This document shows, piece by piece, positions 14,654-59,458 of a DNA stretch of 64,000 bases (position 1 is the stretch's first letter; every line of letters begins with the position of its first letter). A program made the translations under genes and the position numbers. The stretch is taken from positions 54,238,724 to 54,302,723 of the forward strand of contig OX940860.1 of the NCBI GenBank assembly GCA_954871525.1, written 5' to 3'. The notes under the pieces are model-generated. The model saw only the letters and a program-made list of their open reading frames with translations. It made no database searches and had not been told where the DNA came from. The DNA is from Parietaria judaica (taxonomy: Eukaryota > Streptophyta > Magnoliopsida > Rosales > Urticaceae).

Positions 14654-14654
14654 C

Positions 14655-15235
14655 TTCTAAAGGATCTGTAACCAAAAAAGAGCACGAAGAACAAATGAAA
14701 GAAAGCAAGAAAAGTTTGGGAGAAAAACTTCTCTGATTAATCGAATAGCAAAATTGCAATAATGGAGTTACACTAGTATTTATAGGAGACCAAAAACGAA
14801 ACCCTAGCTAACCTTCCTAAAATAAACTCAATCATATCTTATACATTTACATTCAAATCCTAACAGAATCAGGAAACCAAATCAAATCAAATCTCCAAAC
14901 TTGCTCCTCAAGTTTGGCACCTTCTAGAATGGGTTTCGATGACTTCTGGTCGGGTGTCCCTAGCAAGCCTGCTAGGGTGTAGTTCTGCTCGGGACAATCC
15001 TGTTAGGAGTTCTTCTGGTAGGGGCATCTCTGGTAGGAGCATTCCTGGTCGGATCCTTTCCTGCTGGGGAAAGTCTCTGGTCGGACCTCTCTCTGGTGGG
15101 GAGCTCTCTAGTCGGAGAACTCCTGCTAGGAAGATCTCTGCTCGGGCTCTTCTCTGCTAGGGGAAGTTCTGGTAGGGAGATCTCTGGTGGGAAAATCTCT
15201 GGTAGGAGTTGAGCCAAGTCAGGCTTAAACTCACA
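14655..15235 (-). repeat. Copia-2 5' LTR, inner edge deleted
   Basis: Matches 12005-12576 and ends AAACTCACA. The inner edge starts at 'ctaaaggatctg' right after the gag start region, so the primer site is lost. Confidence 0.85.
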
Positions 15236-24330: not shown

Positions 24331-24888
24331 TGTGAGTTTAAGCCTGACTTGGCTCAACTCCTAGCAGAGATTTCCCCACCAGGGATCTCCCCACCAGAAC
24401 TTCCCCTAGCAGAGATCTTCCTAGCAGGAGTTCTCTCACCAGAGATAGGTCCGACCAGAGAGTTTCCCCAGCAGGAAAGGATCCGACCAGGAATGCTCCT
24501 ACCAGAGATGCCCCTACCAGAAGAACTCCTACCAGGATTGTCCCGAGCAGAACTACACCCTAGCAGGCTTGCTAGAGACACACGACCAGAAGGTTCCAAA
24601 CTTGAGGAGCAAGTTTGGAGATTTGATTTGGTTTCCTGATTTTATCAGGATTCGAATATAAATGTAAAATATTTGATTCAGTTTATTTTAGGAAGTTTAG
24701 CTAGGGTTTCGGTTTTTCTGGTCTCCTATAAATACTAGTGTTAGTGTTTATTTTTTTTTTGTAATTCCATTATTGCAATTTTTCCTTCGATTAATCAGAG
24801 AAGTTTTTCTCCCAATTTCTTTGTTCTTTCCTTCTTTTCTTGGTCTACGTTTGTTCTTTGGCAGATCCATTCCCATTGGGAACAAACA
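24331..24888 (+). repeat. Copia-3 5' LTR
   Basis: TGTGAGTTTAAGCC to GGGAACAAACA. TATA box in 'gtctcctataaatactag' (~24720-24737). It has a degenerate ACCAGAGAT/AGCAGAGAT short-repeat block. Confidence 0.93.
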
Positions 24889-24890
24889 AT

Positions 24891-24902
24891 TGGTATCAGA
24901 GC
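24891..24902 (+). other. Copia-3 primer binding site
   Basis: TGGTATCAGAGC, two bases after the 5' LTR; initiator tRNA-Met type. Confidence 0.9.
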
Positions 24903-24906
24903 AAAG

Positions 24907-26037
24907 GTGCCAAAGAAGATGTCGTCACCAAGCAAGTCCACCGGAGGAGAGCTGACGACGGCGACGAAGATTGGATCAAAGGAAGGGAATGTGACGCTCC
25001 ATTACCTGATGCTCACGAAGAGCAATTACTCGGTGTGGGCATTGAAGATGCGAGTGAACTTGCAGGCGCAAGGGGTTTGGGAGGCTGTGGAAGGCAACGA
25101 TGTCGAAGGGCTCAAGGAGAGGATAGCGCTCGCCGCCATCTACCAAGGAGTTCCGGAAGATGTCCTTCTCATGATCGCCGAGAAGGATTCCGCAAAGGAG
25201 GCGTGGTCGACACTTCAAACCATGTACATGGGCGCAGATCGCGTCAAGGAAGCAAAGGTCCAGACCTTGATGAGTGAGCTCGAGGTTATGAGGATGAGGG
25301 AGAGCGAATCAATTGATGATTTCGCTATGCGGCTCACGTCCATTGTGACCGGCATACGTTCGCTGGGAGACAAGGTGGAGGAGACCACCATCGTCAAGAA
25401 GTTTCTCCGAGCAGTGCCTCACAAGTACATGCAGATCGTGACATCGATTGAGCAGTTCGGCGACCTCAAGATCATGACGGTCGAGGAGGTTGTTGGTTGC
25501 CTCAAAGCCCACGAGGAGAAACTTCGGGGTTACGGTGACAGACAAGAGTAGAAGCACCTCCTGCTCACGCATGAAGAGTGGACGGCCAGACAGAAGAAAA
25601 GCGGGGGAGCAGACTTTTCTTCTAGCTCCTCTGGTCGGAGTAGCTACAACGGAGACAGCCGAGAACGTTGTAGAGGTCGTGGACGAGGGCGAGGTCGGGA
25701 CACGCGAGGTCGCGGCAGTGGTGCACCCCGTCAGGAAAGCACGACCAGGAGAGACAAGAGCACAGTGAAGTGCTATAATTGTCAGAAGCTTGGGCACTTT
25801 ACTTCAGAGTGCCGCAGCAAGAACCACAAAGAGGAAGCGAATCTGATGAGATTCAATGAAGACCAGTCGGCTCTGATGTTTGCCGAACAGGAGGTGAGCC
25901 TGGACGGACAAGAAGACGAGAAGACGATCCTCGTAGGCGAGAGAGAGCAGACCTGCTCGGAGAGCAGAGAGCAGACTTGCTCAAAATCCGAGCAGAGACC
26001 AGAGACCAGCGACCAGAGAGCTCCGAGCAGAGACTAG
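24907..26037 (+). pseudogene. Copia-3 gag
   Basis: The start MPKKMSSPS lies directly after the primer site. The capsid region runs to about residue 210, then a TAG at 25549-25551 falls where Copia-1 and Copia-2 have a Glu codon. After an Arg/Gly-rich stretch the same frame reopens and contains an intact CCHC knuckle (CYNCQKLGHFTSEC, near 25768-25810). It then enters a linker of CAG-AGA-ACC type repeats and ends in TAG at 26035-26037, in place of a Gln codon. Gag would form the particle; this copy gives only truncated products. Confidence 0.85.
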
Positions 26038-26330
26038 AGACCAGACGCCAGAGACCAGAGAGCAGACCTGCTCAGAGAAGAAGACCACCGAGATGGTGTT
26101 CCTGATCGAGGACAAGGTTATTGCGAACCTCCTCGTTGACGGAGAACAGAAAATCTCTACCAATGTCTGGTACCTAGACAATGGCGTGAGAAACAACAAG
26201 ACATGAGACAGAGCTAAGTTTGAAGAGCTTGATGAGAAGATCACAGGGAACGTGAAATTTGGCGATGGCTCCATCGTCGAAATTAGATGCAGAGGGTCCA
26301 TCCTGTTCTTGTGTAAGAACAGGGACCAAC
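26038..26330 (+). pseudogene. Copia-3 protease remnant
   Basis: Conserved words 'VFLIEDKVIANLLVDGE' and 'WYLDNG' are readable, but the motif after DNG is ruined (DNGVRNNKT then TGA, against DNGASNHMTGD in the relatives). It ends where the solo LTR was inserted. Confidence 0.75.
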
Positions 26331-29141: not shown

Positions 29142-30602
29142 ATGACCCAGGTCTACTACATCCCAAAGCTGAAGAGTAACATCATCAGCCTCGGACAGAT
29201 GACAGAGATCGGCAACACAGTGGTGATGTCTGGTCCCTATTTGAAGATGTGGAACAGTAGTGGCAACCTGCTGATGAAGATGAAGAGAACGCCGAACAGG
29301 TTGTACAAGATTCTCCTAGAGACAGGCCAACCCGTCTGCTTAATGGCTTCCCTAGCAGACCCGGCCTGGTTGTGGCATGCAAGACTTGGGCACGTAAACT
29401 TCTACGCGCTCAAGCTGATGGGCGAGAAGGAGATGGCCTTTGGGGTTCCCAAGATTGAACACCCCAACTAGCTATGCGAATGCTGCATGATCGCGAAACA
29501 GGCTCGAGTGACATTCCCGATCAAGGCCAAGTTCCGAGCAGAACGACCTCTCCAACTGGTGCATGCGGACCTCTGTGGTCCAATCATCCCAGCAACTCTA
29601 GCCGAAAGCAAGTATTTCCTACTACTTATTAACGACTACAGTCGCTGGATGTGGATCTACACGCTCAAGGAGAAGAGTGGAGCCTTTGAAGTCTTCAAGA
29701 AGTTCAAGAGGCTTGTGGAGAATGGGTCTGAACACAAGATGAAGGTCTTGAGAACAGACCGAGGTGGAGAATTCACATCCTAGCAGTTCGGAGAGTTCTG
29801 CGATAAGAAAGGAGTAGAGCGCCACCTGACCGCACCATATACTCCCCAACAGAACGGTGTGGTGGAGAGACGAAACCGGACAGTGATGGACACAGCGAGA
29901 AGCTTGCTGAAATGTATGCAAGTACCGGCGAGGTTTTGGGGAGAAGCAGTTAGACACGCGGTCTATTTGCTAAACTGTTTGCCAACAAAGGCGCTAGGAG
30001 AGCGCACACCCTACCAGGCATGGAATGGAAAGAAACCTCACTTGGAACACTTGAGACTGTTTGGGTGCACCGCACATGTGAAGACTGCGGGTCCCCATCT
30101 GAAGAAGCTCGATGACAGGAGTCAGTCGATGGTGTACCTTGGTGTTGAAGACGAAAGCAAGGCACACAGACTCTTTGACCCCCGACGAGGCAAGATCCAG
30201 GTGAGCAGAGATGCTGTGTTCGAAGAAGAGAAGAAGTGGGAGTGGCGCGATGAGAACGGTGAGCCCGAGAAGAACTCATTTGAGTTCAAAGTTGAAGAAG
30301 ACGTTGCCGACCAGGAAGGACCAACAACATCCAGCTCGGGTATCTCTACGAGCTCGGGTACCCCTACCAGCTCTGGTGCCCCCACCAGCTCAGGTACCCC
30401 TACCAGAGATTCCTGCCCGGGTACACCCAGGACATCCAGCTCGAGCAGAACCAGCTCGTCCAGCTCAGGAGATTCATCGATCAAGGATGGCCCAAGAGGA
30501 TTCCGTCCCCTAGCAGAAGTCTACGAAGAGTCTCAGGAAGTGGAGATGAACCTAGAAGAGTTGTACTTGTTGTGCGCCGAGGAGCCGGCCAACTACCAAT
30601 AG
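29142..30602 (+). pseudogene. Copia-3 integrase and linker
   Basis: Carries the integrase zinc site (WHARLGH ... LCECCM, all ligands present), the core acids VHADLCGP and LRTDRGGEF, and the Glu in VVERRNRT. A low-complexity linker of SSG-x-STS-type repeats follows (~30330-30480). Stops at 29469 and 29781 both replace Gln codons; 30600 replaces an acidic codon. It integrated the DNA copy in life; no product would be active now. Confidence 0.85.
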
Positions 30603-32080
30603 GCAGCTACCGAGCAGGAATGGCAGGAAGCAATGAAGAAGGAGTTGGAATCCATCGAGAAGAACAAGACAAGGGAGCTCACCGACCTGCCCAAAAGTCA
30701 GAAACCCATTGGCTTGAAATGGGTCTACAAGCTGAAGAAGGACACCGAGGGGAATGTCCTAAAGCACAAGGTAAGGCTAGTAGCCAAAGGCTACGTGCAG
30801 AGGCAAGGAGTCGACTTCGAGGAAATTCTTGCTCCCGTGGCGAGACTAGACACGATCAAACTCATCCTAGCCCTAGCAGCTCATCGAGGTTGGGAGATTC
30901 ACCACATGGATGTCAAATCGGCATTCTTAAATGGTGACCTCGAGGAAGAAGTCTACGTCAGTCAACCTGAAGGTTTTGGCGTCAAGGGCAAGGAGAAGAA
31001 GGTGTACAAGCTCTCCAAGGCTCTATACGGGCTACGTCAAGCTCCAAGGGCGTGGAACATACGCCTCGACAAGAGTTCAAAGAGTCTTGGATTCACAAAG
31101 TGCTCCACGAAGCAGGCAGTGTACACCAGGAGCAGCAGAGAAGAAGTTCTGGTCGTCGGAGTTTATGTGGACGACTTGATTGTCACTGGATCCGGCGCAG
31201 GAGGCGTAGAAGGATTCAAGAAGCAAATGATGGCCGAGTTCAAGATGACTGATCTTGGACTACTTTCTTACTACCTCGGCATCGAGGTGGACCAGAAGAA
31301 GGACTGCATCACGCTCAAGCAGTCGGCCTACGCGAAGAAGATCCTCAAGCAATTTGAGATGACAGATTGCAGCCCGAGTAAGTACCCAATGGAGGCGAAG
31401 CTGCAGCTCGGGAAGGATGCTGAAGGAGGAGAAGTGGATCCCACATAGTATAGACGCGTGATCGGGTGTCTGAGGTATCTCACCCACACCGACCAGACAT
31501 TTCTCACGCAGTAGGGATAGTTAGTCGTTTCATGGAGAAGCCCAAAAGTGCACACTAGCAGGCCGTGAAGCACATCTTGCGCTACATGAAAGGAACGACG
31601 GACTACGGGATCCAATATGGAAGAGGCAGGGGAGCAGAAGAGCTAGTCGGCTTCACTGACAGCGATCTAGCCGGTAACATTGATGATAGGAAGAGTACCG
31701 GAGGGATGGCGTTCTACTTCAACGGGAACCTGATCACCTGGAAATCTCAGAAGCAGAAGACTATAGTTCTATCTTCATGTGAAGCAGAGTTCATGGCAGC
31801 AACCGCAGCAGTATGTCAAGCTATGTGGTTAAAGGGGATTCTGAGTGAAGTGACTGGAGACGAGCAGAAGCGAGTAACACTCTTCGTGGACAACAAGTCC
31901 GCAATAGCGCTGATGAAGAACCCAGTATTTCATGGTCGGAGCAAGCACATAGACACTCGGTATCATTATATTCGCGAGTGTGTGGAGAAGCGGAATATCA
32001 TCGTGGAGTTTGTCAGCACGAAGGAGCAGCGGGCAGATATACTCACCAAGGCTCTAGGAAGATTAAGTTCGCGGAGATGA
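30603..32080 (+). pseudogene. Copia-3 reverse transcriptase and RNase H
   Basis: Reverse transcriptase lies at ~30633-31330 with an intact YVDD motif ([11 protein letters not shown]). A TAG at 31446-31448 replaces Glu in DPTEYRR. A one-base deletion near 31490 shifts the frame, and a TAG at 31556-31558 replaces Gln. RNase H runs ~31565-32060 with 'TDSDLAGN', 'SSCEAEF' and 'LFVDNKSA'. A last frame change near 32060 separates it from the LTR-reading tail. Confidence 0.88.
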
Positions 32081-32133: not shown

Positions 32134-32720
32134 TGTGAGTTTAAGCCTGACTTGGCTCAACTCCTAGCAGAGTTTTCCCCACCAGGGATCTCCCCACCAA
32201 AACTTCCCCTAGCAGAGAAGAGCCCGAGCAGATATCTTCCTAGCAAGAGTTCTCCCACCAGAGAGCTCCCCACCAGAGATAGGTCCGACCAGAGAGTTTC
32301 CCCAGCAGGAAAGGATCCGACCAGGACTGCTCCTACCAGAGATGCCCCTACCAGACGAACTCCTACCAGGATTGTCTCGAGGAGAACTACACCCTAGCAG
32401 GCTTGCTAGGGACACACGACCAAAAGGTTCCAAACTTGAGGAGAAAGTTTGGAGATTTGATTTGGTTTCCTGATTTTGTCAGGATTCGAATGTAAATGTA
32501 AAATATTTGATTTAGTTTATTTTAGGAAATTTAGCTAGGGTTTCGGTTTTTCTGGTCTCCTATAAATACTAGTGTTAGTGTTTATTTTTTTTGTAATTCC
32601 ATTATTGCAATTTTGCCTTCGATTAATCAGAGAAGTTTTTCTCCCAATTTCTTTGTTCTTTCCTTCTTTTCTTGCTCTACGTTTGTTCTTTGGCAGATCC
32701 ATTCCCATTGGGAACCAACA
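32134..32720 (+). repeat. Copia-3 3' LTR
   Basis: Same ends as the 5' LTR, with an extra ~29 bases in the short-repeat block. A frame from RNase H stays open into it as far as 32397. Confidence 0.93.
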
Positions 32721-45125: not shown

Positions 45126-45291
45126 GCAGCGCCTGGACTTGCGACGTTATGGTAATTTTATTGGTCGTGTTGTGTGTGCGCGCGTGAGAGGACCAACGCT
45201 AATGTCCTAAAAAGCATTGTTTTAGTGAGATTAAATTGTTTGGATTTTGGATATATATAAATTTATGTTTTGGCTTTTATGGCATAGTGTT

Positions 45292-45985
45292 TGTAGAGGG
45301 CGATTTTCACCACCTTACAGTCACAAGAATAATCGAAAAGAATGCAATAAAATATATACACGATTATTCCCTGATTTATTTATCCCGAAAGGACTCGGTT
45401 TTTCCCGTTTATTAGCTTGGACAATCGAAGATTACACACTCTAACCCTTGGGAGATCGAGAATGTTATGAATAAGCGAACTCGAAGACTCAAGGATTTAT
45501 TCTCTCAAACTCACGATAATAATGGGTACTGAATACTGGAAATCTCTCTCTTTATGCTAGGTTTACATTCGTATTTATAGGTTTGAAGGTCTTCTAGAAT
45601 ATTCCTCAAATCTTGCTAGGGTTCCCTTCTGAATCGCTATGATCGTTGTTGACCTTCCTTATTTTGCGTTGGATATCCCACGAAATCTTTAACCGAATAA
45701 GCCAATCTTCCCTTCTTTCTCGCGATCTCGAATGAGTTCCTCTTTTAACGCGATTAGGCTTTCTCGTAGAGCTTTTCCTCGATGAACTTCCCTTTTCGCG
45801 ACGAGGTGTTGGGCCGGCTTTATCGGATGCTGACTTCTCGTGGGCTTCGCTTGCTGGGCCTTAATTTCTTTATTCTTTCATGGGCTTGGGTTCTTCAAGC
45901 AATCCTCCTCTCGCTTTATGTCGTTTATTCCACAAACGACAAAGGGTGGTGTTAAGAAGAGATTTGACCAAATCTGACCTTAACA
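45292..45985 (-). repeat. gypsy element 3' LTR
   Basis: Same ends and length as the 5' LTR; a single base differs. Confidence 0.95.
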
Positions 45986-46000
45986 GTTAGTCCCCTATTT
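45986..46000 (-). other. gypsy polypurine tract
   Basis: Minus strand AAATAGGGGACTAAC against the 3' LTR. It is less purely purine than usual. Confidence 0.6.
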
Positions 46001-46401
46001 TATCGAGTGTGAAACAGTTGATAAAATAAACCAAAATTACTCCCCGACAAGGTTTATATCCGATGAGGTTTTTCCCCGATGAAGTTATACCTTCGAAGAG
46101 GACAATCCTCGAAGAGGTTTTTCCCTCGATGGGGGTTGTGTCCTTCGAAGACTCTTCCACTTCTTGCATGCTCACTGATGGCCTCGAGTTCCCACGTAGT
46201 GCTGACTGGGCACGATTCTCCAGGCTGTCAGATCTTGGAAATCGCCGTCAATCCTTTCGCATTAAATGCGGGGTTTTCTCGCACTCGAGTGCCTTCGGGC
46301 TTTGCAATGACTCTTTTGATCTTCACCGTTGGATGATTTCTCCCGCTTCGATCCTGGGCCATTGGATCCAAATGTGTCTCTTCAAATTCGCAAGATTTCC
46401 T

Positions 46402-46409
46402 CTATAAAT
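46402..46409 (+). promoter_or_regulatory. TATA box of the antisense gene
   Basis: CTATAAAT, ~145 bases before the ATG at 46552, followed by a CT-rich leader typical of plant genes. Confidence 0.6.
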
Positions 46410-46551
46410 CCAAACCTCGCCTTCGACTCAAACACTTTGTTTCAGACTTTTTCTCTAAATTCTTTCTGCAATTTTCTTTCTCGACTCTCTTCTTCTCAAG
46501 AAAATCTTCAAACTTTCTTTCCGTTCACCCTCTTCTTTTCCGGTCAAGAAG

Positions 46552-48135
46552 ATGTCGAATCCGGGAAAGATTTTCAAGACTCGATCGCCGAAGTCTATAA
46601 TGACCGAGAGGCATCTCGAGGATTTGAAGAAACACTACGTGGACTCCAGTCCCTGTTACCTGCGTCTCCCTCAGTCCGGCGAGCTTGGCGACGAGCCCCC
46701 GGAAGGGTACATCACTCTTTACGAACACTTCTTCCGGTCGGTGGAACTGCACCTTCCACTGCCTCATCTCATCGTGTGCTTCCTCCATGCGTACAAGATG
46801 CCGATCAGTCAGGTCAGCCCTAATTCGCTTCGCCTTCTCGTTTGCACCATGGCCATCGCTCTTGAGCAGAAAGTGGCCCTCGCTTCGCTAAACTCAGGAG
46901 AGGGAGCTTGCCGAGTGCAAGGCTAAGGCCGAGGCGGAGGTTGCGGCGCTGAAGGCCGAGTTGGATGGGGAGCGTAGGCGTCACTCCATGATAGTGAAAA
47001 GCTACGAGAAGCATCTCGAGGCGAAGAAGTGTCGGCTGGCCGAAGTCAGCGAGGCGGTGGGCGTGCCTGTCGAGCAGGAGAGCCGGCTTGCCTCTCGAGT
47101 GGCCTCGTGCCTGAAACGCCTCGGAAAGGAACTCGAGGTGTCGCAGACAGAGGCGAAATCTGAGCGCGAAGCGCGCCTGCACCTCTTTGACAAGGCTCAG
47201 GAAAAAACGCAGCGCGCCTCGGCGAGGTATAAAGCTTTGGAGGAGTCTATCAATTTTCATCGCCGCTCCGCCGCGTATGGGGCCAATGCTCGCCTTCTTG
47301 AGAAAGCTCCTCCCACGGCGACCATTGAGAGTCTTCTGCCTCGTCTTCCGAAGTATAAGACTTTGGAAGAAGAGAACGAGGCTAAAGCCCGCGAGCTGGA
47401 TGACAGGTCTCTCCTCGATCCTGGTTCTCCTCCGCTTACTCCTGGTGCTCCTTCTTCTGCTGGTATCGATTGGGTGACCCGCTTCGTAGGTGGGGATGCC
47501 TCTTCGGCGTCCGATGGCCTTGATGGGTATGGTACCAACGACGGGGTCGTCACTTCCACCAACGGAGTGGTTGCCACCGAAGCGGTCGCCTCTACCGTCG
47601 AAGCGGTTACCAACGAAGCGGTAGGGGGGGAGGAAGTTTCTTAGGCCTTTTCTCACAGCTTTCCTATGTACATTTATTTGCATTGTCTTTCCGTTGTAAC
47701 TCATTTGAGGGATTTTATCAATGAAGAGACCTTTCTTTAGCTTTAACTTGTTGTTTCTGCACTTGTTGCTTCTTTTGCGTTCCTGTCATTACTTCCTGGC
47801 TAAACTTCTTTCCTCAGGGTGACGAATTCTTCTATACCTCGGAACCGTTATTTTACTACGAGGATGTGTTAGCTTCTTTTCTTGCGATCGACGAAGAACA
47901 TCCCGCCATCCTCGAGGAGTTTGTCCAAGATATGGTAAGGCGTGCGGCTGCCTCTCTTTCCGGAGTCACGGACGACGAGACTCCCTTTAGTCCTTCTTCG
48001 GCCTACGTGATCGAATTTATGATGCTGAGGCCTGTAAATTATGCCGCCGTAGAAAATCTTCTTCGGGACGTCCTCTCCGAGAATGGGGAGTTCGTTATAG
48101 AACAAATTGCCGATAGGGTTGTTCGGGAGGATTGA
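46552..48135 (+). CDS. antisense gene inside the gypsy element (gypsy-type 'Transposase_28' domain)
   Basis: Runs opposite to gag-pol, between pol and the 3' LTR. The first frame (46552-46926, 124 residues) matches the plant 'putative gypsy type transposon' domain (PF04195): a 'PPEGYITLYEHFFRSVELHLPLP' type core, then ISQVSPNSLRLLV. A second frame (~46898-47620) is a coiled coil (AEAEVAALKAELDGERRR) with Ser/Pro-rich end; it is offset by one base from the first near 46885, so an indel or unusual splice separates them. A third part (47818-48135) follows a consistent phase-0 GT-AG intron, 47621-47817. TATA box at 46402 and AATAAA at 48198 frame the unit. Function is unknown; such antisense frames are known from Tat elements. 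Confidence 0.6.
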
Positions 48136-48197
48136 CCTTCCCCTGCTGTATCTGGATAGATTTGTATAAAGTATTGTATTTGTAACGAAGTTTTATC

Positions 48198-48203
48198 AAT
48201 AAA
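48198..48203 (+). terminator. poly(A) signal of the antisense gene
   Basis: AATAAA about 60 bases after the stop at 48135, in 'ttttatcaataaaatc'. Confidence 0.55.
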
Positions 48204-48269
48204 ATCTATGACTTTCGTACGCTATCGATGAAGTATGGGAGTATGTGTACTCCGCTTTTTTTTTTTTTT

Positions 48270-48821
48270 TTGGCGATGAGCTTGTCGGTGTGCACCGGGC
48301 TCTGTCGCGACGAAGTGCTTGGCACTGATTTGTCGGCGATGAGCTTGTCGGTATGCACCGGGCTCTGTCGCGATGTATCGATCGGAATTTGCGCCGGAGC
48401 GGCTTTGTATTTTTCTTTGATTTGTCGGCGATGAGCTTGTCGGTATGCACCGGGCTCTGTCGCGATGAATCGATCGGAATTTGCGCCGGAGCGGCTTTGT
48501 ATTTTCTTTGATTTGTCGGCGATGAGCTTGTCGGTATGCACCGGGCTCTGTCGCGATGAAGTGCTTGGCACTGATTTGTCGGCGATGAGCTTGTCGGTAT
48601 GCACCGGGCTCTGTCGCGATGTATCGATCGGAATTTGCGCCGGAGCGGCTTTGTATTTTTCTTTGATTTGTCGGCGATGAGCTTGTCGGTATGCACCGGG
48701 CTCTGTCGCGATGAATCGATCGGAATTTGCGCCGGAGCGGCTTTGTATTTTCTTTGATTTGTCGGCGATGAGCTTGTCGGTATGCACCGGGCTCTGTCGC
48801 GATGAAGTGCTTGGCACTGAT
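48270..48821 (-). repeat. higher-order tandem repeat in the gypsy 3' region
   Basis: Two unit types share 'ggcgatgagcttgtcggt' and 'gcaccgggctctgtcgcga': A (~62 bases, ends in 'agtgcttggcactgat') and B (~91 bases, with 'tcgatcggaatttgcgccgg'). Order is A-B1-B2-A-B1-B2-A, so the period is 246 bases (48272, 48518, 48764). B1 and B2 differ consistently (gtatcg / gaatcg), so the 246-base block was duplicated as a whole. The period is a multiple of three, which keeps long accidental frames open. Confidence 0.93.
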
Positions 48822-49058
48822 TTCTTTTTGTGATACGTGTTTATTTGAATCAGCGATAGAATATTGTCTTAAGAGACGAGCCTCGTTAAACCCTTTCGAG
48901 TCCCCCAACGGGTGCGGCTCGCGAGGGAAGAGTACTCCCTGTTGTATTGAATAAAGCCGGAGCCAATCGTGCGGATCCCGAACAAGTAGGGTCGGGAGTC
49001 CCCTGTTAAATAAACTTAAAATAAAATAGAAAGACTTAAGAAAAATAGGAAAGAAATC

Positions 49059-52000
49059 TTAACTAAAAACCGAAATCGTAAGGCGCCGATGACGTTCTTT
49101 ATTGGTAGAAATCTTCAAGTGCTTGACATTCCACCTTCTTATGACCTTGACTCCATCGGTGTTCTTGAGTTCGTATACCCCTGGCTTGACGATGTGGGTC
49201 ACTGTATAAGGGCCTTCCCAGCTTTCACCTAGCTTTCCCGCGTTAAGCTCGGCTGTGTTCTGGAACACCCTTCTGAGGACCAGCTCTTCGACTCGGAACC
49301 TTCTCGGTCGCACCTTTTTATTGTAGAAGCGTGCGATGGTGTTCTGGTAGTTTGCTATATGAACTCTGGCTCGCTCCCGTCTTTCGTCTATATGGTCGAG
49401 CTGGTGAAGCAGGTCCTGGTTATTGTCTTCTTCGTGGTTTGGTGCCCAGGATCGCCGGAAACTGGGGACTCCTACTTCCGCCGGGATCACCGCTTCCACC
49501 CCAAATGCTAGAGCAAAAGGAGTTTCTCCGGTGGCTGAGTGTGGCGTTGTCCGATAAGCCCAAAGTACTCCAGGGAGTTCATCTGCCCATAGCCCTTTCT
49601 TCTTGTCGAGCCGCTTCTTGAGGTTGTCAGTGATCGTTCGATTGATTGCTTCGGCGTTTCCGTTCCCCTGAGGATATCTTGGCGTCGAAGTGTTTAGCTT
49701 TATTTTCCATCGTACGCAGAAATCTCTGAACTTCTTCGAGATGAATTGTGACCCGTTGTCTGCGATTATCTCTCTGGGGAGTCCGAAGCGAGTGATTACG
49801 TTCTTCCAAACGTAACTCTCGACATCGGAATCCTTGATATTGGCGTAGGCTTCGGCTTCGGTCCATTTGGTGAAGAAGTCCGTGACCACCAGCATGAACC
49901 TCTTCTGTCTTGCTCCGATTGGCATGGGACCGACGATGTCCATGGACCACTTCATGAAGGGGTAGGGCACCGATACTACCGATAGTTCTTCGGCCGGGCA
50001 GTTGATTGCTGGGGCGTGTCGCTGGCATTTCTCGCACTTCCTGGCGTGGTTGGTGCAATCCGCTCGCATTGTTTCCCAGAAGAAACCTTGTAGCTTAGCT
50101 TTCCTCAATAGGTTGCGTCCGCCTGAGTGGTTACCGCACTCTCCGCTGTGGATTTCTTCCATGACGTAGTTCGCCTCTTCTTTGTCTAGACAACGTAGGT
50201 AGGGGCCTACGAGGCTTCTGAAGTAAAGCCTTCGGTCTATGATCGCGTATCGAGAGCTCTTAGTCTTTATTTTCCGCGCCTCTTGTCGATCTTCGGGTAG
50301 CTTTCCTTCGACCAAATATGCTCGGATGGGGGTCCGCCAATCTTCGTCTTCGGTCTCTTCTACTATTCCTGGTTCTTCGTCCTCGCTCTCTTCTTCTGCT
50401 ATGAGCTGAGTTTCTTCGTTGTTTTCCTTCTGGACGTCGTCGCTGTCACGAGTGCTGTCCTCCTCGTTGGTTTGTCCTTCTTCGCTTACTTTTAGCTTCT
50501 TCTTATCGGGCCCTTCGCTTCTCTTGATGCTAGGCGTCTGAAGCGTTTCTACCGTAATCGATCGGAGCTCTCCTACCTGGGTGGTCGACCCCAGGCTCGC
50601 CAAGGCGTCCGCGTGGTTGTTGTCTCCTCTGGACACTTGTGTTAAAGTGAAGAAATCGAACTTCTTCTCGAGAGACCTGACAATCCCAGCGTAGGCCTCC
50701 ATTCTTTCGTCGTTCGTTTCGTACTCTCCGCTGACTTGCTTTACGACTAGCTGAGAATCCGAAAAGGCGTTCAAACTCTTTACTCCGATGGCCGTGGTTG
50801 ATTGCATCCCGACGATGAGCGCCTCATATTCCGCTTCGTTGTTGGTGGAGCGATAGGCGAGGCGGCAGGCCTTCTCGATCACTTCTCCCATCGGGGAGAT
50901 GAGCCGGACCCCGATTCCTGATCCCATCGAAGTCGCCGATCCGTCGACGCAGAGTTTCCAAGTGCCGGCCTCATCGCTCAGCTCCACGGGCTCCCTAGGT
51001 AGCTCGATGATGAAATCGGCTAATACTTGCGACTTCAGACTCGTCCTCAGCTGGTATTCGATGTCGTACGCTCCTAGCTTTATGTTCCACTTCGTGATTC
51101 TGCCGGATTGGTTCGGGCTTTGAATGATGGAGCGAATCAGCCTGTCCGTCATAACGATGATCGTGTGGGCTTGGAAGTGGAAACGTAGTCTCTCCGATGC
51201 GTCGTATACGGCTAATGCTAGCTTCTCGATGGTGGGATACCTTGTTTCGGCGTCGAGGAGCTTTCTGCTGATATACGAGACTGGCTTTTGCTCCCCTTTC
51301 TCCTCTCGAACTAGCACCTGGCTTATTGCTTGATCGGACACGGCGATGTACAGGTAGAGCGTCTCTCCGGGTTCTGGCTTCGTCATAACGGGCGGCGACG
51401 ATAGATAGGTCTTTAGTGCTTGGAAAGCTTCTTCGCACTTGTCGGTCCATTCGAACTTCTTGTTTTTCCTCAACAGCTCGTAGAATAGAAGAGTTCGGTC
51501 CGCTTGTCGTGAAATGAACCGCCTTAGCGCGTTGATCCTTCCTGTCAGCTTCTGAACTTCTCGCCGGTTTCTTGGCGATGGCATGCTCTGAATGGCTTCG
51601 ACCTGTTCGGGGTTTGCTTCGATTCCTCGTCGGGTGACCATCTGACCTAAGAATTTCCCGGATGAGACACCGAAGGTGCACTTAGTGGGGTTCAGCTTCA
51701 TCTGGTGTTTGTTGAGGACGCCGAAGCATTCCTCCAAGTGCTCCACGTGCATTGCCGCTTTTAGAGATTTGACGACCATGTCGTCGATGTATACCTCCAT
51801 GCTCTTCCCGATCTGCTCGTGGAACATCTTCGTCATTAGCCTCTGGTAGGTCGCCCCGGCATTTTTCAGACCGAAGGGCATAACCTTATAGCAGTAGGTT
51901 CCTCTTTCGCTGACGAAGGCTGTCTTCTCTTCGTCGTCTGGATGCATTCGGATCTGGTGGTAGCCTGAATAGGCATCCATGAAGCTTAAGAGCTCGTACC

Positions 52001-52499
52001 CGTAAGTGGCTTCGACAAGGCGATCGATGTTCGGCATCGGGAAGCTGTCCTTCGGGCATGCTTTGTTGAGATCCGTGAAGTCGACGCACACTCTCCACTT
52101 GCCATTCTTCTTTTTAACCACAACGGTGTTGGCTAACCACTGGGGATATTTTACCTCCCTGATGGTCCCCATAGCGAGCAGCTTGTCTACTTCGTCGTTG
52201 ATGATCTTGTTCCGGTCGGAGGCCATCTTTCTTCGCTTCTGTATGACGGGCTTGTGCCCGGGGTCCGTGTTGAGCCGGTGGGTGACCATCGTCGGATCGA
52301 TCCCGGGCATGTCTTCGTGAGACCATGCGAAGCTTTTTTGGTTCTTCTTCAGGAATTCGACCAGCTGAGCTTTGATATCTGGCTCGAGTCCTGCGCCTAT
52401 ACCGACGGTTCGGGTTGGATCGGAGTCATCGATGCAAACCTGTTCTACCTCTTCGAGCTGCGGGCCTCCTAGTCTTTCTTCGGCTGTTTGGTCGTCCAT
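49059..52499 (-). CDS. gypsy Pol: reverse transcriptase, RNase H, archaeal-type RNase H, integrase
   Basis: 1146 residues from the first Met; in-frame codons extend upstream to the amber codon at 52611. Reverse transcriptase (~85-300) has the intact catalytic VYIDDMVV (~237). A worn first RNase H lies at ~385-500. The archaeal-type RNase H (~515-645) has all acids: CVDGSA, NNEAEYEAL, FSDSQLV and NNHADALA. After an acidic Glu/Asp-rich linker comes integrase with an HHCC zinc site (IHSGECGNHSG ... CEKCQRHAP), then Asp in WSMDIVGP, Asp in IIADNGSQF and Glu in GNAEAINRT. It copies the RNA and integrates the DNA. No stop or frameshift was seen. Confidence 0.94.
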   Translation of the reverse strand: MDDQTAEERLGGPQLEEVEQVCIDDSDPTRTVGIGAGLEPDIKAQLVEFLKKNQKSFAWSHEDMPGIDPTMVTHRLNTDPGHKPVIQKRRKMASDRNKIINDEVDKLLAMGTIREVKYPQWLANTVVVKKKNGKWRVCVDFTDLNKACPKDSFPMPNIDRLVEATYGYELLSFMDAYSGYHQIRMHPDDEEKTAFVSERGTYCYKVMPFGLKNAGATYQRLMTKMFHEQIGKSMEVYIDDMVVKSLKAAMHVEHLEECFGVLNKHQMKLNPTKCTFGVSSGKFLGQMVTRRGIEANPEQVEAIQSMPSPRNRREVQKLTGRINALRRFISRQADRTLLFYELLRKNKKFEWTDKCEEAFQALKTYLSSPPVMTKPEPGETLYLYIAVSDQAISQVLVREEKGEQKPVSYISRKLLDAETRYPTIEKLALAVYDASERLRFHFQAHTIIVMTDRLIRSIIQSPNQSGRITKWNIKLGAYDIEYQLRTSLKSQVLADFIIELPREPVELSDEAGTWKLCVDGSATSMGSGIGVRLISPMGEVIEKACRLAYRSTNNEAEYEALIVGMQSTTAIGVKSLNAFSDSQLVVKQVSGEYETNDERMEAYAGIVRSLEKKFDFFTLTQVSRGDNNHADALASLGSTTQVGELRSITVETLQTPSIKRSEGPDKKKLKVSEEGQTNEEDSTRDSDDVQKENNEETQLIAEEESEDEEPGIVEETEDEDWRTPIRAYLVEGKLPEDRQEARKIKTKSSRYAIIDRRLYFRSLVGPYLRCLDKEEANYVMEEIHSGECGNHSGGRNLLRKAKLQGFFWETMRADCTNHARKCEKCQRHAPAINCPAEELSVVSVPYPFMKWSMDIVGPMPIGARQKRFMLVVTDFFTKWTEAEAYANIKDSDVESYVWKNVITRFGLPREIIADNGSQFISKKFRDFCVRWKIKLNTSTPRYPQGNGNAEAINRTITDNLKKRLDKKKGLWADELPGVLWAYRTTPHSATGETPFALAFGVEAVIPAEVGVPSFRRSWAPNHEEDNNQDLLHQLDHIDERRERARVHIANYQNTIARFYNKKVRPRRFRVEELVLRRVFQNTAELNAGKLGESWEGPYTVTHIVKPGVYELKNTDGVKVIRRWNVKHLKISTNKERHRRLTISVFS

Positions 52500-52600
52500 G
52501 TCTTCCGCGTTGAGGATCTTGGGGGTGCCCGGGGGTCCTCCTTTTCCCTTTTTCCTTCGTCGCTTCCTCCTGATCGTCGATGGTGGAGGCGGAGCAGACG

Positions 52601-52616
52601 CGGCTAGCTGCTATTG
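52601..52616 (-). promoter_or_regulatory. amber codon in tobamovirus-type leaky context
   Basis: Minus strand CAA TAG CAG CTA, in frame between protease and reverse transcriptase. It matches the known read-through consensus TAG-CAR-YYA exactly. With no frameshift needed, a small share of ribosomes could make Pro-Pol. Recoding itself is inferred. Confidence 0.65.
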
Positions 52617-53249
52617 AGCGGCTGGCTTGCTGCCGCTGCACTCAGCCTTCTCGACGTCCTTGGGCGCGCTCATTGCTCGAAAGTGCATCATGTAACAGAT
52701 GCGATAGGCTTCGCTGCTTCCTCGGACTTCATCGATGGTTCCTTCTACCCGTCCGGGGAATTTTATGCATCGGTGATATGTGGACGGGACGGCCTTCATC
52801 GAATGAATCCATGGTCTCCCGAGGATTACGTTGAAGTGCGATCGCACGTCCAATACCATGAACTCGGTCATCTGATGGACGGTTCCGGCGTAGACGGGGA
52901 GATTCACCGTTCCCAGCGAGATAGCTACGTCTCCGTTGAAGCCAGACACCTTGCGCGGATGGCCTCCGATGGCCAAATCTTCGATCTCCATTCGTGTCAG
53001 ACAGTCGTAAGTGATGACGTCGACCGAGCTTCCATTATCGACGAGGACGCGAGCAACGTCGCATCCTCCTATGTTGAGCTCTAAAACTAGGGCGTCGTCG
53101 TGTTTGTCTGCGCATACTTCTTCGTCGACGAACTCTATCGTCGTCTTCTGACTGGTCATCCGCGCATCTTCCTGAGCGGACTCCTTCCCTCTGCGTTGGT
53201 AGGCCTTGATGCTGTTGATGGAATCTTCGCAGAGGCGGGATCCTCCCAT
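52611..53249 (-). CDS. gypsy protease region
   Basis: In the same frame as Gag; the real open stretch begins right after the TAG at 53361. The aspartic protease core is near residues 45-62, LELNIGGCDVARVLVDNGSS, with Asp-Asn-Gly at the active site, followed by 'ILGRPWIHSMKAVPSTYH'. It cuts the polyprotein. It ends at TAG 52611-52613, again with the frame open on both sides, and leads into pol. Confidence 0.88.
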   Translation of the reverse strand: MGGSRLCEDSINSIKAYQRRGKESAQEDARMTSQKTTIEFVDEEVCADKHDDALVLELNIGGCDVARVLVDNGSSVDVITYDCLTRMEIEDLAIGGHPRKVSGFNGDVAISLGTVNLPVYAGTVHQMTEFMVLDVRSHFNVILGRPWIHSMKAVPSTYHRCIKFPGRVEGTIDEVRGSSEAYRICYMMHFRAMSAPKDVEKAECSGSKPAAQ

Positions 53250-53360
53250 GATCAGGTCGATCCTTGGTCTTGCGGCTAGTCTCCCATCGTTCGGGCGTTC
53301 CCCCGATGCTTCCTCGATCGTGAGGCTTCTTTTTGGGGCCTCCTGGTTTCCTCCCGCGCG

Positions 53361-55049
53361 CTATGCTGGCGCCTCCCGCTTGTTCGGCCACGATCGGTTG
53401 TCGTTGTTCCATGGCTGAGTGGGCTTTTGGGAGACGTCTTGGAATTCCCCCTGCTCGATCCTCCTTTGGATCATCTTCTTCAGAGTGGCGCACTCGTCGG
53501 TCGCATGACCGTGGTATTCATGGAAAGAGCAGTACTTGCTCATGTCTCTCGGCCAAGGCTTTCTCTCGTAGCTGCCTCGGCCGCCGGTATGACCTCCTCG
53601 GCCTCCCGAAAATCCTCCTCGGCCTCCAGAATAGCCTCCTCGGTTGCCAGAGTAACCTCCTCGATTCTCCGGAAAGCTTCCCTGGTTGCTCGGGAAGTAT
53701 CCTGGTTGTGAGTTTCCTTGTGGGAGTTCCTCCTGCCGATTGCCTTCGCGGTTGCCGAGCGCCTCTTTCTTTCCGTCCATCTGGTAGACTCCGTATCCAG
53801 GGTTTTCCCTGATCCTTCGCTCGTCGGCCCCGTCTCTGCTTCTCCGATCTCGTCGTTCCCCTTCTCTCCTTGTTCTGGACGACGATCCCTCTCGTCCGTC
53901 TCTAGTTTCCTTCCTTTCTGGCCTGGTTCGGCCTTCAGCTTCCTCTTCTAACCTTTTCTTGATCGCCTTATTTTCCTCCATGTCCATGTAGATTGTCGCT
54001 TTGTGGAGCGCGTCTTCTATCGAGTTTGGCAGCGAGACGCACAGTTCGTCGTTGAACGGAGATTGGTAGTACAAGCCATGCTTCAGAGCTTGGACCGAGA
54101 CGACGTCCTCGATCTTCGGGACTCGGAACATGACGTTCTTGAATTTCTCTATGTATTGCCGAAGAGGTTCGTTCTTCCCTTGCTTGACATCGAAGAGGTT
54201 GGATACCGTCAGCTCCGTCTGTACGTAGATGGAGAAGTGTTTTAAGAAGAGGGCGACCAACTCGTCGGAGGTGTTGATGGAGCCTGGCGTTAATCTTGCG
54301 AACCAGTCGCTGGCGCGGCCCTGCAAACTCGCGATGAAAAGTCTGCATAAGATGGCTTCCTTCCGGACCTCCTCGCCCCCGATGTGGTCTGTCGCGATTC
54401 GGAATGACTTCACGTGTGTATGGGGATCCGTATCCCCTTTGTATGGCGTGAGTCTGATCTTTGGTAATTCCTCCAGCTCTATCCCCCGAATCCTCGTCGT
54501 GAACGGGGTGATTCTGGCTTCCCGCACCATCCTGTCGATTTCTGGCGCCGAACTCGTCGCCTGGTGCACCTGCGATGCGACTTGTCCGAGTTTGGCCTCC
54601 ATCTTTGCTGACATTAAGGCCATCGCCTTGGCCACCTCTTCGGCCACTCTCGCCGCCACGTCCGTCGTCGCATTGCCCTGTGTGTTCCCCGGCGTGTCCT
54701 CCACTCGATTCGCCGTGGTTGGCTGGACTGCGTCCGTGTCGAAAAGGTTCCTGATGAGCGATGGGGTTGACATGCCTACCGGTGCGTCCGTCGTCACCGT
54801 GTCTCTGCTGGCGCTTCCCCCGGCCCCTCGTGCGGCCGATTCTGCTATCTGGTTCGTCGGGCGCGGTCTCTCCGCGCGCTCTAGGAGGCTTGCGAGGCGT
54901 CTGGTCTCCGCGGCCTGCTCCTCTATCTTTCGGGCGGACTCCTCGGCTCTGCTTGTGACCTCCGTCATCTTTGCGATGGCCTCGGCCAGCTGCTGTTGCA
55001 TTCGCTGCATGGTTTGCTCCTGGGCGGAGCTGGCTTCCTCGGCTGACAT
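53361..55049 (-). CDS. gypsy Gag
   Basis: 562 residues. A coiled coil (~10-60) precedes a Ser/Thr-rich part. The retrotransposon capsid domain (~195-370) contains 'LTPYKGDTDPHTHVKSF', 'ASDWFARL' and 'DVKQGKNEPLRQYIEKF'. A basic stretch and Gly-Arg repeats (NRGGYSGGRGGFSGGRGG, ~470-510) lead to a CX2H-type zinc motif (CSFHEYHGHATDEC, ~520) like that of other Tat elements. It assembles the particle and packages RNA. The frame ends in TAG at 53361-53363, but codons after it stay open into the protease, so Gag-Pro could arise by read-through. The start is the first ATG after the primer site. Confidence 0.92.
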   Translation of the reverse strand: MSAEEASSAQEQTMQRMQQQLAEAIAKMTEVTSRAEESARKIEEQAAETRRLASLLERAERPRPTNQIAESAARGAGGSASRDTVTTDAPVGMSTPSLIRNLFDTDAVQPTTANRVEDTPGNTQGNATTDVAARVAEEVAKAMALMSAKMEAKLGQVASQVHQATSSAPEIDRMVREARITPFTTRIRGIELEELPKIRLTPYKGDTDPHTHVKSFRIATDHIGGEEVRKEAILCRLFIASLQGRASDWFARLTPGSINTSDELVALFLKHFSIYVQTELTVSNLFDVKQGKNEPLRQYIEKFKNVMFRVPKIEDVVSVQALKHGLYYQSPFNDELCVSLPNSIEDALHKATIYMDMEENKAIKKRLEEEAEGRTRPERKETRDGREGSSSRTRREGERRDRRSRDGADERRIRENPGYGVYQMDGKKEALGNREGNRQEELPQGNSQPGYFPSNQGSFPENRGGYSGNRGGYSGGRGGFSGGRGGHTGGRGSYERKPWPRDMSKYCSFHEYHGHATDECATLKKMIQRRIEQGEFQDVSQKPTQPWNNDNRSWPNKREAPA

Positions 55050-55097
55050 TCTCCTTCCTCCCTTCGATTTCCTGGCTGTGCGATAGAAAGAAACAAA

Positions 55098-55115
55098 GCC
55101 CCATGGTGGGCGCCA
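55098..55115 (-). other. gypsy primer binding site
   Basis: Minus strand TGGCGCCCACCATGGGGC, three bases inside the 5' LTR; a common type in plant gypsy elements. Confidence 0.8.
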
Positions 55116-55118
55116 AAC

Positions 55119-55812
55119 TGTAGAGGGCGATTTTCACCACCTTACAGTCACAAGAATAATCGAAAAGAATGCAATAAAATATATACACGATTATTCCCTG
55201 ATTTATTTATCCCGAAAGGACTCGGTTTTTCCCGTTTATTAGCTTGGACAATCGAAGATTACACACTCTAACCCTTGGGAGATCGAGAATGTTATGAATA
55301 AGCGAACTCGAAGACTCAAGGATTTATTCTCTCAAACTCACGATAATAATGGGTACTGAATACTGGAAATCTCTCTCTTTATGCTAAGTTTACATTCGTA
55401 TTTATAGGTTTGAAGGTCTTCTAGAATATTCCTCAAATCTTGCTAGGGTTCCCTTCTGAATCGCTATGATCGTTGTTGACCTTCCTTATTTTGCGTTGGA
55501 TATCCCACGAAATCTTTAACCGAATAAGCCAATCTTCCCTTCTTTCTCGCGATCTCGAATGAGTTCCTCTTTTAACGCGATTAGGCTTTCTCGTAGAGCT
55601 TTTCCTCGATGAACTTCCCTTTTCGCGACGAGGTGTTGGGCCGGCTTTATCGGATGCTGACTTCTCGTGGGCTTCGCTTGCTGGGCCTTAATTTCTTTAT
55701 TCTTTCATGGGCTTGGGTTCTTCAAGCAATCCTCCTCTCGCTTTATGTCGTTTATTCCACAAACGACAAAGGGTGGTGTTAAGAAGAGATTTGACCAAAT
55801 CTGACCTTAACA
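55119..55812 (-). repeat. gypsy element 5' LTR
   Basis: Minus strand TGTTAAGGTCAG to CCCTCTACA, with TATA box AACCTATAAATACG near 55396-55409. Confidence 0.95.
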
Positions 55813-55817
55813 GTGTT

Positions 55818-55969: not shown

Positions 55970-56167
55970 TGAGAAAAGCAAGAAGAAAAGATGATGATTT
56001 GGGAAAGATAATCAGCACTCACACAACGTGAGGCATCAGTAGTATTAGTAATAAAAGAGCACATATAAAGGACAGGTGTAGAACTAGGAGAGTCTAGCAT
56101 AAAGCATCCAAAGCAAAGAAAACAAAATAACTAATTACAAGAGTTAATCCAAAACTATTGTTTAACA
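55970..56167 (-). repeat. Copia-4 3' LTR
   Basis: Minus strand TGTTAAACAATAG to CTTTTCTCA, with TATA-like 'tttatatgtgctc'. The outer end is chosen on TG...CA form and length only; the 5' partner is not in the window. Confidence 0.55.
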
Positions 56168-57400
56168 TCCCCCAGCAAGCGAATGGGGGTGTGAACAACC
56201 GTGAGCTTGGACCGTAGAGATACAAACCGAGGCGACGGTAGAGGTTTTGTCATTATATCCGCAAGTTGATCTTCAGACGGCGTATGCTCGACAAAGATGG
56301 CTTTTGTGAGAACACGTTCACGAAAAAAATGATAGTCAATCTCGATATGTTTCGTGCGTGCATGTAAGATCGGGGTTGCAGCCAAATGTATAGTGCTCAT
56401 GTTGTCACAAAGGATCAAAGGTGGAGCAGTCAGGTTGATCTGAAGCTCTCGAAGAAGAGTTTGTAGCCACAAAATTTCAGCAGTGGCGTTGGCAAGACCT
56501 CGGTACTCGGATTCGGCACTAGAGCGGGAGACGACCTTCTGTTTGGTAGAGGACCACGAGACCAAGTTTGGGCCAAGGAAAGTGCAGTAGCCACTTGTGC
56601 TCCGACGGTCATCGGGACTAGAGGCCCAATCCGCATCAGTGTAAGCAGTGAGAGAAAAATCTGGAGACGATTGAAGCATAATGCCAAGCGTTGTCGAGCC
56701 ACTGATGTATCGGAGAATACGCTTAATCGCTGACCAGTGAGCTGTAGTAGGAGCATGCATGAATTGACAGACCTTTCTGACAACAAAACTCAAGTCGGGG
56801 CGAGTTAAAGTGCAATATTGTAAAGCTCCCACGATTTGGCGATACGGCGTGGGATCGGGCAAAGGTTCACCATCATAAAGAGATAAGTTTGTATTTGATG
56901 CCATAGGTGAGGAAGCGTGCTTGCAGTCGATCATATCCATTCGTGACACAAATGTAAGGCATCAACAGTTCGAGTTACCTGAAGGCCAAGGAAGTAGTGG
57001 AGGGGGCCAAGATCCTTAAGAGCAAAGCGTGAGTGAAGATGTGATGTTAACTCGGAAATAGCATTGTCGGAGCTACAGGTGACGATAATATCATTAACGT
57101 AGACGAGTATTATCAAAGTGATACTGCCCGAGTAAAGGCAAAACATGGAGCTATCGGCTTTAGCATTAACGAAGCCTCGTTGAAGTAAGCACCGACTGAG
57201 TTTAGTGTACCAAGCTCGAGGGCTTTGCTTGAGCCCATAAATGGACTTATGAAGACGACAAACATGAGAGGGAAACTGAGAGTCAACAAAACCTGGTGGT
57301 TGGGACATGTAGACCTCCTCACTGAGATCCCCGTTGAGAAAGGCGTTGTGAACATCAAGTTGTCGTATTGGCCAGTCATTGGAAATTGCTAGGCATAGAA
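56155..57400 (-). pseudogene. Copia-4 reverse transcriptase and RNase H
   Basis: The first part (56931-57308) carries SIYGLKQSPRAW and the catalytic site, but as LVYVNDIIV: the first Asp of YVDD is Asn (AAT, 57093-57095), which should abolish polymerase activity. The upstream start of the domain (RQLDVHNAFLNGDL) is in another frame. A gap near 56945 shifts the frame before SRMDMIDCKHASSP. The rest (56155-56949) is an open RNase H region with TDADWASS, SSAESEYRG and LCDNMSTI. The stop lies four codons inside the LTR. Confidence 0.87.
56168..56177 (-). other. Copia-4 polypurine tract
   Basis: Minus strand TGCTGGGGGA directly before the LTR. Confidence 0.75.
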
Positions 57401-59398
57401 CTACTCGGGCAGTCTTGGTTTCACAACTGGACTGAAAGTATCAAAATAATCTAGTCCGAGAGTTTGAAGAAACCCTCTAGCGACTAATCTTGCTTTGTGT
57501 CGTTCCACTGAACCGTCAGGTTTGAGCTTGAGTTTGTAAACCCACTTACAATCAATTACTTTGTGTGTAGTCGGTGAAGGCACAAAAGTCCAAGTGTTAT
57601 TCTGAATTAACGCTTGCATCTCATGACTCATAGCTTCTCGCCACTCAGGGTGGGCAGCGGCTTGTTTGAAAGTTGTCGGCTCGGTTAAAGCGGATGTTGA
57701 TGAAGCTTCCGATGAGGTCAAAAGAAGCCGAGGTCGCTGAATTTCTGTCTTGGACCTAGTAGACATCGAGTGAATATTAGTAGCATCTGGTGGTCGATGT
57801 ACCACGGGGCCCGATGTAATAAAAGTAGGAGACACTAATGTATCACATGATTGGTCATTAATAAATTCAGTGGGTGATGATGGAGTTGTCGCAGTAGTAT
57901 TTGGAGAATTTGGAATGGGTGATAGAGAAGGAGAATGGATATGCTCAGGTGTACGAGGTGTTGGAGATGTTGAAATTGGAGAGCAAGAGATACTGATAGG
58001 GATATTGTGAGGTAATGTTTGAGAGGGACTTGGAGTAGCAATTGTGGGTGAGACTTTAGCAAAAGGAAAACTGGTTTCGTTGAAAATAACGTGTCGAGAG
58101 ACATATATACGACCAGAATTGCGTTGAAGACAAAGGTACCCTTTATGATAGGAGCTAAAACCTAGAAAAATGCACTCGGTGGAACGGAACTGAAGTTTGT
58201 GATCATTGTATGGGCGAAGAAAAGGAAAACAAGCACAACCGAAGACTTTAATTGAATTGTATGAGGGTGTTTTATGATAAAGTGACTCGAAGGGAGAAAG
58301 ATTGTTGAGAACGGTGGTGGGAAGACGATTTATTAAGTAAGTGGCGGATTGAAAAGCATATGGCCAATATGAAAGAGGGACGGATGAGTGAGCTAATAAG
58401 GAGAGACCAACTTCGACCACGTGACGATTTTTTCTTTCTACGCGGCCATTTTGTTGTGGGGTGATAGGACAAGGGTGTCGGTGATGAACTCCAAGATTTT
58501 CAAGAAAAGGTTTGATCGGTCTAAACTCTCCTCCCCAATCGGTTTGGAGATTTTTTATTTTTGTTTCGAATTGAGTTTCGACCATATATTTGAACTTGAA
58601 AAATGTGGAAAAGGTTTCATGTTTGCCTTTGAGTAAATAAATCCAAGTGAAACGTGAATAATCATCGATAAATAAACAAAAATATTTGACACCAGTGATT
58701 GATTCAACGGGAGATGGACCCCAAAGATCGGAATATATTAATTCAAAGGGCTTTGTGGCCCGAAACGAAGACTTTACAAAGGGGAGACGATGACTTTTAG
58801 CCATTTGACAAGAGTTACATAAATCTGTAATTTTGATGGAAAAAGGAAGATTACATGACTTCATAACTCGATGAACAACGGGAAGAGCGCAGTGACCTAG
58901 TCGGTTATGCCGTAGACCGACTTCTTGGAGTTGAGTATGATAGACTCTATCAGATGACACGACACTGTGAAGAAAATACTGAGGTGGAGTTTGGGAGGCT
59001 TGATGAAGTTTGTAAAGACCGTCTTCAAGAATGCCCTGCAGAAGAATTTTCTTCGAGCACAGATCCTTCACAAGAAAATAAGTATCATAAAATTCAACAA
59101 AAGCATTGTTGTCTGAGCACAGTTTGCTAACACTAAGAAGTTGTTTAGTTATTTCCGGAGTGTGAAGAACATGGTTAATGAAAATTGGTTTGAGAGATGT
59201 CTTAAACCTAAAATGACCAATATGTGATATATCAATGCTTTTACCATTACCTATGAACGCCTGATTGTCTCCATAGAAAAGCACTGGATCATCAAGGTGT
59301 TGTAGCTCCGGTGTAAAATGGTGGGTCGCTCCAGAGTCGAGAAACCAGTCTCCCGAGTTAGAGGAATTGACGTGAGCTGATTCCTCGACAATGTTCAT
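57401..59398 (-). pseudogene. Copia-4 protease, integrase and reverse transcriptase start
   Basis: 665 open codons. Protease motif WFLDSGATHHFT is near residue 20. The integrase zinc region contains LRHNRLGHCALPVVHR and CNSCQMAKSHR. The core acids are in LIYSDLWGP and LQTDWGGEF, with Glu in GRVERKNRH. A Ser/Pro/Thr-rich linker leads to the reverse transcriptase start 'WREAMSHEMQAL' and 'FSPVVKP'. The frame then breaks by a missing base near 57420. Upstream, the same frame continues past a TAG (59459-59461) into the zinc knuckle. Confidence 0.88.
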
Positions 59399-59458
59399 CG
59401 GTGGAGATGGTGCGGCATAACAGAAACCGGCAAAATGGGATTGTGATTGAGGCCGATA

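Follow-up and report, generated by a model that had tools for sequence, protein, structure and literature searches.

The window analysed here, a 64,000-nt stretch of the Parietaria judaica genome, carries an LTR retrotransposon on the minus strand at 45292-55812, recognised by its LTRs, target-site duplication and gag, protease and pol frames. The 5' LTR (55119-55812, minus strand) and the 3' LTR (45292-45985, minus strand) are both 694 bp long and show a single mismatch (45560/55387), confirming the original prediction that they are one base apart. The target-site duplication GTGTT lies at 45287-45291 and 55813-55817. The gag gene (53364-55049, minus strand) is counted from the first Met at 55049, with its frame already open from 55133, and matches Pfam Retrotrans_gag (PF03732, E 2e-14). 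The protease frame (52614-53360, minus strand) matches Pfam Asp_protease_2 (E 2.5e-5) and 52 relatives. The pol gene (49062-52610, minus strand) comprises 1,183 stop-free codons encoding reverse transcriptase (RT), RNase H, a second RNase H (RVT_3) and integrase, and closes with a terminal TAA (49059-49061, minus strand). Within pol, Pfam places RT_RNaseH at residues 414-515, RVT_3 at 556-672 and H2C2/rve at 809-980. The window pol departs from its relatives at 25 of 307 otherwise near-invariant columns. Gag, protease and pol, each with Pfam support, are all in register in one minus-strand frame, which is interrupted by two in-frame stops, both TAG, at 53361-53363 and 52611-52613.

The region between pol and the 3' LTR spans 3,073 bp (49058 to 45986) and contains a tandem array at 48272-48823, with a unit of 246 nt and sub-periods of 92 and 154. 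The element appears to be a Retand-like member of the Tat lineage of Ty3/gypsy, on account of the RVT_3 domain between RNase H and integrase, the tandem array and the 3.07-kb pol-to-LTR region. A second RNase H at this position defines the Tat lineage (PMC6317226), and Retand elements have a pol-to-3' LTR region of 2,933-6,566 bp in which tandem arrays are frequent (PMC11963269). LTR size and the presence of an antisense ORF are further likenesses to Retand. Two overlapping antisense open frames, at 46459-46926 and 46892-47644 (plus strand, different frames), were seen in this region, the latter (250 codons) with a coiled-coil-like appearance. The Retand antisense ORF carries TRP28, whereas a Pfam search of the antisense ORFs found no TRP28 (PF04195) match at E values up to 5. 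Retand also differs in having a single gag-pol ORF, reported for 83% of eudicot clusters (PMC11963269). The 120 pol relatives listed, from 5,376, are 41-62% identical to the window pol, and an RT tree with 96 rows places the element next to a sister group of 48 rows, whose source names are mostly those of Brassicaceae. Viral and genome collections gave no related loci for the pol protein or alignment A1, and the plasmid collection gave nothing for the protease and only distant matches for pol (<60% identity).

Other repeats were noted elsewhere in the window. Ty1/copia-like open frames occur at 3246-7842 (minus), 29784-31445 (plus) and 56158-59458 (minus), the last interrupted between 56961 and 57404; Pfam RVT_2 was matched in 3246-5798 and 57404-59458, and the rest of this assignment was made by eye. 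Minisatellite clusters at 12344-15208, 24359-26066 and 32176-32369 are built from related units, TCTGGT or ACCAGA, and occupy both strands; they may belong to a single repeat family present in either orientation.

Protease and pol are separated by the amber TAG at 52611-52613 (minus strand), which is putatively leaky. The junction reads CAA TAG CAG CTA at 52616-52605 on the minus strand. The original prediction was correct about these letters and about the shared register of gag, protease and pol, and it overlooked the second TAG at 53361-53363. The CAA codon directly 5' of the stop (52614-52616, minus strand) is also the tobacco mosaic virus codon; it is kept in 39/40 aligned genomic copies and varies between subfamilies. 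The CAGCTA that follows the stop (52605-52610, minus strand) fits the CAR-YYA hexamer of the type I readthrough signal, which is defined as UAG followed by CARYYA (PMC5382211). In plants, the tobacco mosaic virus context gives UAG readthrough of 6-10% in stable lines and 32% in transient assays, 25 flanking nucleotides are enough, and tyrosine is inserted (PMC2754532).

At a single junction, the chance rate of such a match is only suggestive as evidence for readthrough. The 9-mer of stop plus hexamer shows no enrichment in the window, with a single match where shuffles predict 3.41. In-frame CAR-YYA codon pairs number 6 in 2,024, and the chance of CAR-YYA after a random stop is about one in 340-640. 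Since one copy proves nothing by these figures, sibling copies were needed, and conservation in other copies is the decisive evidence for a putative junction signal. No RNA structure more stable than in shuffled sequences was found in the 120 nt 3' of the stop (z 0.78), and an Rfam scan returned no match at gathering scores; type I readthrough is not known to require a 3' structure. Among the in-frame stretches tested for codon usage, the one just past the stop scores lowest, yet its score is the best of the three frames there.

A search of the host's own genome (538.7 Mb) gave 1,035 first-look candidates, of which 40 places were scored, the window copy included. The 39 siblings are 95-99% identical to the window copy. 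At the homologous codon, TAG followed by CAR-YYA is present in 39/39 scored siblings, and thus in 40/40 copies with the window copy; neither a sense codon in the siblings nor a TAG private to the window copy was found there. The hexamer itself varies, as CAGCTA (17 copies), CAACTA (14), CAATTA (8) and CAGTTA (1), and every change is confined to the degenerate positions of CAR-YYA. The drawn tree of the 40 copies has seven hexamer changes, and its well-supported branches force fewer. CAATTA is the tobacco mosaic virus hexamer and also occurs in copies of several other subfamilies. In one report, CAA UYA is given for tobacco mosaic virus and a second virus (PMC2754532). Besides the protease/pol TAG, 27 in-frame stop positions were found in the alignment, each in 1-3 of the 40 copies, and 0/32 of these other in-frame stops are followed by CAR-YYA. 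Eighteen of the 40 copies have no other in-frame stop in the 3.1 kb read.

The TAG at 53361-53363 (minus strand), in the gag/protease linker, behaves differently. It is a sense codon in 39/39 siblings, the hexamer 3' of it is not CAR-YYA, and it is a private lesion of the window copy. A two-step gag-pro-pol readthrough, with this TAG as a second leaky stop, was considered and rejected because the TAG is absent from all siblings. Because this private TAG lies between gag and protease, the window copy is broken and probably unable to produce its own protease and pol. The original prediction had also taken the near-identity of the LTRs to make decay a poor explanation for the stop after protease. 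That argument does not hold, as the same young copy bears a private amber and newly inserted wheat elements carry an estimated mean of about 0.3-1.4 in-frame stops (PMC9744471); lesions are compatible with LTRs that are almost identical. The stop after protease could, on the same grounds, be an inactivating mutation carried in copies mobilised in trans, since the second TAG is such a lesion and new insertions can carry stops (PMC9744471).

Copies of other subfamilies bear on this explanation. A search with the protease relative P0129 gave 3,549 first-look candidates, of which 150 copies were scored. None of the 150 showed a fused gag-pro-pol open frame; in 87 the open frame measures 820-862 aa, as expected for gag-protease, and the remaining copies have shorter frames that permit no judgement on fusion. 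L043 is listed with a 1,813-aa frame, but two stops lie inside the match. Sequence was read at 50 of these 150 copies (30 loci and 20 short stretches), which, together with the 40 aligned copies and minus the duplicates L059 (= L022) and L061 (= L004), give 88 distinct copies. The stop codon is TAG in 85 of these and TAA, for which lower readthrough is reported, in three (L052, L053 and L069). CAR-YYA stands directly 3' of the stop in 84/88 distinct copies from nine subfamilies, as counted by hand from the alignment of 40 and the listings of 50 loci. The exceptions are L041 (CAATAA), L044 and L045 (CAACGA) and L080 (AAATCA), and the CAACGA pair represents one of the nine subfamilies, which lies outside the consensus. 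In the set of 30 loci, 25 match CAR-YYA at the first stop past the protease match; L041, L044 and L045 fail, and in L046 and L068 another stop comes first, for which the one lining up with that of the family was substituted. In the set of 20, 18 match at the first stop; L080 fails, and for L087 a second stop, three codons further, was taken as homologous. An automatic stop locator also placed 84/88, a figure biased by design, because stops without CAR or AAA directly after them were not accepted. The copies share descent, so 88 copies amount to far fewer than 88 independent tests.

Nine subfamily representatives, chosen by eye, share 38-62% amino acid identity downstream of the hexamer and 42-66% in the protease (the six with enough sequence). 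Across these representatives, the T, A, G, C, A and the final A of the hexamer are identical in 9/9 and a pyrimidine (T or C) stands at the fifth hexamer position in 8/9, whereas none of the other columns from -12 to +20 is above 0.78. The YYA codon is TTA or CTA (Leu) or TCA (Ser), depending on the subfamily, which indicates that the nucleotides are kept and not the residue. A residue constraint as the cause of the hexamer conservation was therefore rejected. Decay is barely credible against this background, as the stop is common to 39/39 siblings and nine subfamilies, the full CAR-YYA is kept in eight of the nine, no fused copy was seen among the 150 scored, and the pol downstream is under purifying selection. 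By contrast, the prediction that a Tat-lineage element suppresses an amber of tobamovirus type between its protease and pol is supported at the level of the family, at least as far as its sequences can tell.

Codons 1-100 past the stop are under purifying selection and have no start codon of their own in most copies. Among the 40 copies, pN/pS for shared changes in this stretch is 0.30 (18 synonymous, 17 nonsynonymous; P 4e-4, with polymorphisms taken as independent; L035 has a gap within these codons). The corresponding shared values are 0.18 for the part of gag read, 0.27 for protease and 0.11 for pol codons 38-469. The first 37 codons past the stop alone show no clear selection (6 synonymous and 6 nonsynonymous shared changes, P 0.08; P 0.04 with singletons). 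In 35/40 copies no in-frame ATG occurs until 101 codons past the stop, inside RT; in two, two and one copies the first ATG comes after 38, 12 and 19 codons, respectively. A constrained stretch without its own start codon in most copies points to translation through the stop.

Alternatively, pol might be made by its own initiation, through internal entry, reinitiation or a non-AUG start, with the conserved hexamer serving something else. Of the 120 listed pol relatives, 54 carry gag, protease and pol, 21 protease and pol, 2 gag and pol, and 43 pol only; the last group suggests separate pol frames in the lineage, although these counts are weak because many of the relatives are gene models in which stops may be masked by predicted introns. 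We regard own initiation as highly improbable, considering that the first ATG in most copies lies within RT, that the codons before it are constrained, and that the register with gag-protease would be needless.

A break after protease recurs in the lineage, to judge from the protease ORF ends of relatives. Among the 52 protease relatives, 29 end at projected protease positions 228-260 without a pol match, although at least P0166 among these actually continues into pol and short contigs carry some of them. For 23 relatives selected by this ending, P0123 and 22 from the set of 52, we counted the residues that separate the G.PW landmark from the ORF end: 16 have 50-54, P0129 and P0137 have 71, four Eutrema relatives 77 and P0123 120, and the window element has 69. 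Cannabis, Silene, Salvia and Eutrema are among the sources of Brassicaceae and other eudicot Tat families with protease ORFs ending at this point. Several Arabidopsis entries (P0007-P0010, P0016, P0017, P0018, P0020 and P0021) show a protease-pol linker without the usual tail. In these the gene models may have spliced out a stop-bearing segment, hiding the same junction. Ogre, also of the Tat lineage, likewise has its break at GAG-PROT | RT-RH-INT (PMC6317226). The position after protease, which the original prediction called unusual, is thus shared with Ogre and with many Tat relatives.

In Ogre, an intron in a spacer averaging 274 bp is partially spliced, which eliminates the break (PMC6317226), and an intron of this type between protease and RT could take the stop out of some transcripts of the present family as well. 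The window linker is long, with 135 residues between anchors compared with 26-125 in 60 relatives, as such an intron might predict. Its G+C content, however, is 61%, above the coding average of 54%, and of the GT..AG pairs that would keep the frame, even the best one in a simple consensus scan is weak, its AG being that of the stop itself. In addition, pol is in frame without any removal, in that the frame runs on through the stop, and the context of the stop is conserved. We therefore consider an Ogre-type intron very unlikely.

The features observed are the arrangement of the sequence, its conservation across copies and subfamilies, selection past the stop and the absence of any conserved start codon shortly after it. 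From these we infer that the family very probably programs type I UAG-CAR-YYA readthrough, with Gag-protease as the major product and Gag-protease-pol as the minor one. Most ribosomes would release after protease and yield Gag-protease, the main product, while a few percent would insert an amino acid at the UAG and continue via the variable linker into RT. The purpose would presumably be to set the Gag:Pol ratio, with a small dose of polymerase.

The proposed arrangement resembles several known systems. The tobamovirus type I signal shares with it the UAG, the CAR-YYA and an abundant upstream product split from a polymerase, and differs in serving a virus replicase; here the putative signal, with no 3' structure found, lies at the protease/RT boundary of a chromosomal LTR retrotransposon. 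Moloney murine leukaemia virus also suppresses an in-frame UAG to make its polymerase polyprotein, but that stop closes gag, ahead of protease, and works with a 3' pseudoknot (PMC2194720), whereas the present stop is after protease and has a local hexamer. The comparison with the soybean Ty1/copia element SIRE1 in the original prediction holds for the suppression of a stop codon in a plant LTR retrotransposon (PMC2829016, PMC2194720), which in SIRE1 is described as serving an envelope-like frame and not pol (PMC2829016). One precedent counts against the proposal, as readthrough was reported as undetectable in a yeast test at the in-frame stop of Tca2, an element from Candida (PMC2194720). Other points that weigh against it are the subfamily with CAACGA, the three TAA copies, the broken state of the window copy and its deviating pol columns, the low codon-usage score past the stop, the unclear selection on the first 37 codons and the missing 3' structure.

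In a literature search covering mostly open-access titles and abstract openings, no description of UAG-CAR-YYA at a plant Ty3/gypsy gag-pro/pol junction was found. On the evidence of that search, a known recoding signal would here be new to this junction. More tentatively, and with somewhat less than even confidence, we suggest that type I amber readthrough may be old and widespread in eudicot Tat/Retand elements, as one of several answers, together with the Ogre intron and the single frame, to one ancestral post-protease break. If so, a plant RNA virus signal would be working in chromosomal retrotransposons, in perhaps thousands of copies. How plant Ty3/gypsy elements achieve an excess of Gag over Pol is poorly resolved, as many are reported to be single-frame and Ogre splices. 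The conservation of a short, well-studied recoding signal at the gag-protease/pol boundary of a many-copy lineage brings the Gag:Pol question within reach of a test, by ribosome profiling or with a reporter of 25-60 nt. It also matters for annotation, where pipelines may label such elements dead or invent introns that skip the stop.
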